Positions 24,343 to 27,137 of a stretch of 64,000 bases of DNA are shown here, in pieces. Every line of letters begins with the position of its first letter. The stretch's first letter is position 1. The DNA lies in contig NZ_FQXC01000004.1 in NCBI RefSeq assembly GCF_900129875.1, forward strand, positions 434,001-498,000. The letters run 5' to 3'. Both the position numbers and the translations under genes were made by a program. The notes beneath the pieces are model-generated. The model saw nothing but the letters and a program-made list of their open reading frames with translations, did no database searches and was not told where the DNA came from. The stretch comes from Marivita hallyeonensis. GTDB taxonomy: Bacteria > Pseudomonadota > Alphaproteobacteria > Rhodobacterales > Rhodobacteraceae.

Positions 24343-26376
<2,034 letters not shown>

Positions 26377-26661: not shown

Positions 26662-26718
26662 GGGTTCCAAAGCGATCCGAATTTTGCGGAAAATGCCGGC
26701 TTGCATGATTTGGCATAT

Positions 26719-26733
26719 GTTCTATTTTTGTTC
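26719..26733 (+). promoter_or_regulatory. LexA (SOS) box
   Basis: GTTC-TATTTTT-GTTC is an exact match to the alphaproteobacterial LexA site GTTC-N7-GTTC. It ends two bases before the ATG of the DnaE2-like fragment. In this group SOS boxes of this form stand before recA, lexA and the imuA-imuB-dnaE2 mutagenesis cassette. Confidence 0.75.
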
Positions 26734-26735
26734 TC

Positions 26736-27137
26736 ATGCAGAACGCCTATGCCTCTCGCCATTCGGATGGGCCTGACTGGCCGCGCCCGCCGTCGTGCCT
26801 GATGGCGTCTCAGCTCAAGCTGCCGCCCAACGGGGCGCGGGTGGCGGTGGCGGGGCTTGTGATCCTGCGGCAGCGGCCCGGCACCGCAAAAGGGGTGATC
26901 TTCCTCACGCTTGAAGATGAAACCGGCGTGGTAAACATCATCGTCTGGCGCAAGATGTACGAACGCTTTCGCCGGGCGGTCATCGCCGGGCGGATGCTCC
27001 GGGTCACCGGGCGCATTCAGAATGACGGCGACGTCATCCATGTGATCGCGGAAGAAATCGAAGACATTTCGCCGATGCTCGACCTGCTTCTGTCGCCGAA
27101 ACCCGAGACGCTTTCGCCGGACCTGCAAACCGGCTAG
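26736..27137 (+). pseudogene. C-terminal OB-fold fragment of error-prone DNA polymerase DnaE2
   Basis: The 133-residue frame matches only the C-terminal OB-fold of DnaE2/ImuC: LPPNGARVAVAGLVILRQRPGTAKGV, FLTLEDETGVVNIIVW and VTGRIQ-GDVIHVIAEEIEDIS are characteristic. A complete DnaE2 is over 1,000 residues, and the PHP, palm and fingers parts are missing. The first 22 residues do not resemble the family. A perfect LexA box directly upstream suggests that an SOS-controlled imuA-imuB-dnaE2 cassette lost its middle by deletion, leaving promoter and 3' end. It could instead be a small expressed OB-fold protein, since the frame is intact. Confidence 0.75.

Follow-up and report, generated by a model that had tools for sequence, protein, structure and literature searches.

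A short gene of Marivita hallyeonensis, contained in a 64,000-nucleotide stretch of contig NZ_FQXC01000004.1 (hereafter the window), probably encodes the OB-fold subunit of a two-gene, SOS-controlled DnaE2 (ImuC) polymerase, with the OB domain acting in trans. From the sequences compared here, we put the probability of this reading at roughly three in four. The splitting of DnaE2 into two genes, its spread among related marine bacteria and the SOS boxes are well supported.

A stand-alone OB-fold gene behind a LexA box

A perfect LexA box, GTTCTATTTTTGTTC, of the form GTTC-N7-GTTC, occupies positions 26719-26733 of the forward strand. It is followed by the dinucleotide TC and then by an ATG at 26736. 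The box stands where the original prediction had placed it, and a perfect box is kept in 119 of the 126 orthologous loci.

The gene that opens at this ATG, a predicted leaderless start, extends to 27137 on the forward strand and codes for 133 residues. It had been predicted as an intact, stand-alone OB fold of DnaE2, and profile searches agree: residues 36-111 (26841-27068, forward strand) match the OB-fold family PF01336 with an E-value of 6e-14, and the best NCBIfam match is NF004225 (DnaE2), limited to positions 942-1039 of its 1047. Against solved structures, the OB profile finds weak OB-fold relatives only, including the Pol III alpha chain 5fku (E 0.039). The nearest named relatives of the gene are from Marivita. 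Matches were also found in 832 plasmid records; among the best 40 of these 832, most are annotated as error-prone DNA polymerase, and the remainder have no gene under the match or belong to unannotated records. A frameshift or sequencing error was considered and rejected, there being no DnaE2 homology upstream and the frame being open in relatives; a phage origin was rejected for want of any PHROG family match.

The GTTC-N7-GTTC pattern is not rare by itself, since it occurs 5 times in the window against 2.5 expected and 9 of 100 shuffles of the window reach 5. Combined with an ATG at a spacing of 1-4 nt, it is found once in the window; with exactly 2 nt before the ATG, it is found twice in the whole genome, against 1 match for a reversed control pattern. 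The evidence for the box-ATG arrangement is its conservation among relatives, not its rarity. A second GTTC-N7-GTTC match, GTTCTCTGTCAGTTC, lies at 24673-24687 of the window, within the region of a ferredoxin-like frame, and is probably due to chance.

The rest of DnaE2 is encoded elsewhere in the genome

We searched the genome that contains the window (4.19 Mb, 20 contigs) with the NF004225 profile at E ≤ 0.001. Matches are confined to three places: the OB frame of the window, an OB-less DnaE2 on contig C13 and a DnaE1-like protein on contig C9. No DnaE2 thus runs on upstream in another frame, an outcome that the original prediction had named as the mark of a sequencing error. The additional dnaE2 and imuB for which it had suggested looking are both present on C13, the former as the OB-less core.

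This core is a 997-residue open reading frame, whose match at C13:244289-247180 covers NF004225 from about position 4 to 938. It scores 1230 bits against NF004225 (cut-off 939) and 493 against the Pol III alpha model NF004226; judged by these scores, it is a DnaE2 rather than a DnaE1. Its Pfam domains are PHP, Pol3 alpha, finger and HHH_6 (HhH). A C-terminal OB domain in the same chain is usual, not universal, in DnaE2. Here the chain has none, ending 34 residues past the end of its NF004225 match, and the OB part is a separate frame on another contig. The core has a LexA box of its own, GAAC-N7-GAAC, beginning 28 nt before its ATG.

Split cores stop just after an LTP motif, the proline of which (P964) is present in 41 of 42, and the tails past LTP, from 1 to about 80 residues long, are unrelated in appearance. 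Within 110 nt of 47 distinct split cores, the SOS box is perfect in 18 and reads GAAC-N7-GAAT in 27, and 2 cores have neither; by our own arithmetic, assuming equal base frequencies, a box with at most one mismatch would occur by chance in such a stretch at a rate of about 8%. Most of these boxes sit 25-33 nt ahead of the start codon used.

Distribution of the split and fused forms

The family was surveyed in 246 genomes, one per genus. A stand-alone OB gene is present in 107 of them, and 103 of these 107 also have an intact OB-less DnaE2 core. Fused DnaE2 occurs in at least 105 genera, 2 of which also carry a stand-alone OB gene. By class, 103 genera have an intact core and OB, 5 a core without a counted OB, 4 an OB without an intact core, and at least 103 fused DnaE2 only. 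The co-occurrence of split core and stand-alone OB gives a Fisher p of 2e-49 over the 246 genera; as these are related and most or all splits share one ancestry, only one or two independent split events stand behind that value.

The exceptions are few. In two genomes (G097 and G181), what there is of the core lies in pieces at contig ends, and G097 has just its first third. A third (G247) has the OB gene, a fused DnaE2 of another type and remnants of a split-type core that are 64% identical to the split core L004 and 47% to its own fused DnaE2. The fourth (G087; 7 contigs, 100% complete) has the OB gene (L234) and ImuB with no DnaE2 core, which may mean that the core was lost recently, that it lies on an unassembled replicon or that the OB protein has another task. 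Four genomes with a core and no detected OB (G080, G100, G184, G201) are all drafts of about 100-490 contigs. A short OB frame at a contig start (G025) was not counted as stand-alone, and one genome (G119) was not kept among the split cores, since its pieces make up a single fused frame. The 126 stand-alone loci are what remains of 128 after L201 and L202, fused DnaE2 ends at contig edges, were removed. In G117, the fifth genome whose core has no counted OB, the OB gene lies in an odd frame, with neither the WxxPP motif described below nor a box, and the core is also boxless. One genome (G071; L268, L149, L209) has the split DnaE2 on its contig C1 and, on C4, a fused DnaE2 adjoining ImuA- and ImuB-like genes; the C4 OB coordinates agree with the Dinoroseobacter shibae plasmid record NC_009957.

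Within the genus of the window, all 17 genomes have an OB match and all 17 have the core too. Named carriers of the stand-alone OB gene (80 of 552 relatives) include Marivita, Roseovarius, Ruegeria, Shimia, Tropicibacter, Tateyamaria and Roseivivax. The original prediction had set against itself relatives that conserve the short gene away from any cassette and without a LexA box; the former part was found, the DnaE2 core being absent from the flanks (up to 3 kb per side) of all 80 named OB loci, and the latter was not, the box being kept as described above. In the 15 genomes compared that have both halves on one contig, the distance between them is at least 0.2 Mb, for example 0.2 Mb in G218 and 1.4 Mb in G070. 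In G214, core and OB are about 1 kb apart, with an opposite-strand gene between them.

A predicted leaderless promoter

In 105 of the 126 OB loci, the box is separated from the start codon by 1-4 nt, and in 85 by exactly 2 nt (with one GTG start). The box therefore takes the position of a ribosome-binding site not only in the window, as the original prediction had pointed out in proposing leaderless translation, but across relatives. Seven of the 126 loci have no perfect box, and 14 of the 119 boxed loci have a spacing of 5 nt or more; in G087, it is 33 nt.

We aligned the 85 promoters with the 2-nt spacing. A TTGC that begins 18 nt ahead of the box has its four bases conserved at 96%, 68%, 94% and 74% in turn, and the five fixed columns of a TATNTT element are conserved at 87-99%. 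In the window, these correspond to a predicted -35-like element, TTGCAT, at 26701-26706 and a -10-like element, TATTTT, at 26723-26728, both on the forward strand; the latter lies inside the spacer of the LexA box, 16 nt after the -35 hexamer. In the aligned promoters the box spans the -10 element; counting from the end of that element, the eighth base is the A of the ATG. As the conserved pair puts the transcription start at the ATG, a leaderless mRNA is predicted, and the OB message is probably translated without a leader. From its sequence and position, GTTC-N7-GTTC is a putative operator over the OB promoter, as in the alphaproteobacterial LexA (SOS) regulon.

A candidate docking peptide

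Ahead of the OB fold, residues 15-19 (26778-26792, forward strand) read WPRPP. In 123 of the 126 stand-alone OB proteins, a WxxPP motif lies exactly 24 residues ahead of the (A/V)GLV strand: 117 have WPxPP, mostly WPRPP, and six have WHRPP or WLRPP. It occurs in none of 26 fused DnaE2 rows. WPRPP, a new N-terminal peptide, is our best candidate for a dock that would replace the lost covalent link.

The motif is missing in L147 (Sedimentitalea arenosa), in G117 and in G247. In G247, the OB gene survives and the motif is lost where the split-type core is reduced to remnants; being one lineage without intact split core and motif, it gives thin support for docking. The coreless G087 keeps WPRPP, which weakens a simple docking view. 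On the side of the core, residues specific to the split form are found at four positions only (395, 450, 451 and 964), too few for the dock to be placed from them. Residues 450-451 (L004 numbering) are KR in split cores and mostly RA in the fused DnaE2 of the family.

Origin, selection and genomic neighbours

The core tree contains 60 proteins, that is, 68 minus the fused L042 and L049 and six other distant rows; six near-identical rows from the genus of the window and repeat copies of loci had been left out earlier. It places 41 split cores on one side of a branch (SH-aLRT 83), with G214 outside. Forcing all 42 split cores into one clade gives an AU p of 0.041; in the OB tree, which is built on few columns, a single clade is not rejected (p 0.66). 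Given the placement of G214 in the core tree, there may have been two separate splits.

The OB protein of G214, which has the WPRPP motif, retains the C-terminal tail of fused DnaE2, HPRDQAKRLFPSRDFH, and that of G117 keeps it in part (the fused tail of the family is HPRxQAKxLFPSRDFH). These retained tails argue that the OB protein descended from a single-chain protein. Three split cores (L154, L184, L185) have C-termini of the form HPR..RHF, resembling the fused tail HPR...RDFH, as though the core had kept or regained the tail motif.

Within the genus, the OB gene has a median pN/pS of 0.20 (136 pairs, 17 genes) and the core one of 0.11 (45 pairs, 10 genes). By this measure the OB gene is under purifying selection. 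It is accompanied by two conserved neighbours that stand outside the system. A ferredoxin-like gene, so named by the look of its sequence (24343-24792, reverse strand), has a homologue in the flanks (up to 3 kb per side) of 77 of the 80 named OB loci, and a peptidoglycan-binding-domain protein (PF01471; 27180-27734, forward strand) has one in 60 of the 80. Their conservation points to a stable chromosomal home for the OB gene.

ImuB and ImuA partners

An ImuB-like protein is present in 60 of 60 genomes (E up to 1e-20). In the genome of the window, imuB (C13:25761-27419, Pfam IMS) lies behind a perfect LexA box and shares its contig with the core, about 217 kb away. In 10 other genomes with both on one contig, the distance is at most 4 kb in 6 (G068, G079, G093, G130, G204, G244) and 22-28 kb in 4. 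A perfect box was found at 29 of 30 ImuB loci, the remaining one not having been parsed. The fused DnaE2 genes inspected are mostly close behind an ImuB-like frame.

For ImuA, the model gives weak matches only: its 150-bit cut-off is reached in 0 of 60 genomes and in 0 of 14 control genomes. The genome of the window has a weak ImuA-like match on contig C12 (E 6e-7), where a perfect box overlaps one possible start. A perfect box is present in 7 of 8 stretches around such weak matches, its position having been checked in this genome only. The mutasome parts of this genome (OB, core, ImuB and the weak ImuA-like gene) are thus spread over four places on three contigs.

Proposed mechanism and alternatives

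We propose that, in an ancestor of a large Roseobacter-group clade, dnaE2 broke precisely where the helix-hairpin-helix region meets the OB domain, leaving a polymerase body and an OB domain that are now usually unlinked, each behind a LexA box. DNA damage would lead to LexA cleavage and so release both halves. The OB mRNA would most likely begin with its start codon, the LexA box lying over the -10 element, and would be translated leaderless. The OB protein would then join the OB-less polymerase in trans for translesion synthesis, together with ImuB, which has its own box, and perhaps the ImuA-like protein. Its contribution would be template-strand binding, and its N-terminal WPRPP peptide would dock it in place of the lost covalent link. 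Induction, assembly and the role in mutagenesis are steps that we infer.

The simplest account, and the one offered by the original prediction, was that an internal deletion in an imuA-imuB-dnaE2 cassette had joined the SOS promoter to the last domain, the remnant being kept by chance. The frame does consist of the last domain only, directly behind an SOS box, but the remainder of DnaE2 is encoded intact on another contig, where it stops at the same domain boundary and has an SOS box of its own. Of the 246 genera, 103 have both halves and 107 the stand-alone OB gene, which has conserved neighbours and a median pN/pS of 0.20. The OB-less core and the conservation of the OB gene rule out this origin for practical purposes. 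It is harder to dismiss, though still unlikely, that the OB protein is a free-standing SOS factor that binds single-stranded DNA, competes with DnaE1 or serves ImuB, and does not join the DnaE2 core. The coreless G087, with OB, WPRPP and ImuB, would suit such a factor, as would the four drafts with a core and no detected OB. On the other hand, 103 of the 107 OB genera have precisely the form of DnaE2 without this domain, and only 2 of at least 105 genera with fused DnaE2 have the OB gene: one of them (G071) has a split core and the other (G247) the remnants of one.

A different doubt concerns the start codon. If translation began downstream, for example at Met23, the contact of box and ATG would be accidental; there is indeed no room for a ribosome-binding site before the ATG at 26736, and the spacing reaches 5 nt or more in 14 of the 119 boxed loci. 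We regard this as improbable, more so than a free-standing factor: 105 loci have a spacing of 1-4 nt and 85 of these one of 2 nt, the -35/-10 pair is set for initiation at the ATG, and a start at Met23 would drop the conserved WPRPP.

The reading that we prefer is thus a DnaE2 whose OB subunit is supplied by a second gene. It could be taken further, in that the OB protein might be a separately dosed, leaderless SOS subunit throughout the clade, with a WPRPP docking that is perhaps exchangeable between the DnaE2 core and ImuB. From the sequences we consider this extension tentative and somewhat doubtful; if true, a second component under separate control would gate mutagenesis.

In error-prone C-family polymerases the OB domain normally belongs to one chain with the rest of the enzyme, which makes its role difficult to test. 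Its natural separation in about 100 of 246 genera would make it removable, titratable and taggable with the polymerase untouched, and would offer a two-chain interface for mapping the DnaE2-ImuB contact. The gene is also a candidate, conserved among relatives, for leaderless translation under SOS control. A survey in which such a DnaE2 is scored as merely OB-less would miss the separate gene.

Comparison with known systems

Several DnaE2 sequences have been described as lacking the CTD and OB domain (Timinskas et al., PMC3919608), and the cores found here fit that description; the accessible text of that paper makes no mention of the missing OB domain surviving as a separate gene. More widely, no separate DnaE2 OB gene is described in the literature searched, which included the accessible text of PMC3323433, PMC5285347, PMC3290774, PMC4374717 and PMC5627055. 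A two-gene DnaE2 with a separate OB gene has no earlier description in that literature. Predicted LexA targets in D. shibae are named in PMC6473078, the main text of which contains neither dnaE nor OB-fold.

Two other systems invite comparison. Mutasome variants with a stand-alone ImuB-C domain (PMC6511836, PMC12926913) likewise have a mutasome domain as a separate gene, but it is that of ImuB, not of DnaE2; the terms OB-fold, OB domain and Rhodobacter are absent from the main texts of both papers. The cyanobacterial split DnaE is, according to the accessible text of PMC3919608, a C-family polymerase in parts. It has an intein at the split, whereas the junctions here, inspected by eye, show no intein-like extension: some cores end with LTP plus 1-3 residues, and the OB protein opens with a short leader and WPRPP.

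The closest likeness is to the known DnaE2 (ImuC). The two halves combined have the same sequence and domain order, and they share with it the LexA boxes and, in 60 of 60 genomes, an ImuB-like partner. They differ from it in their arrangement: the OB domain has a gene to itself, about 217 kb separate imuB from the core in the genome of the window, and in relatives imuB has a box of its own.
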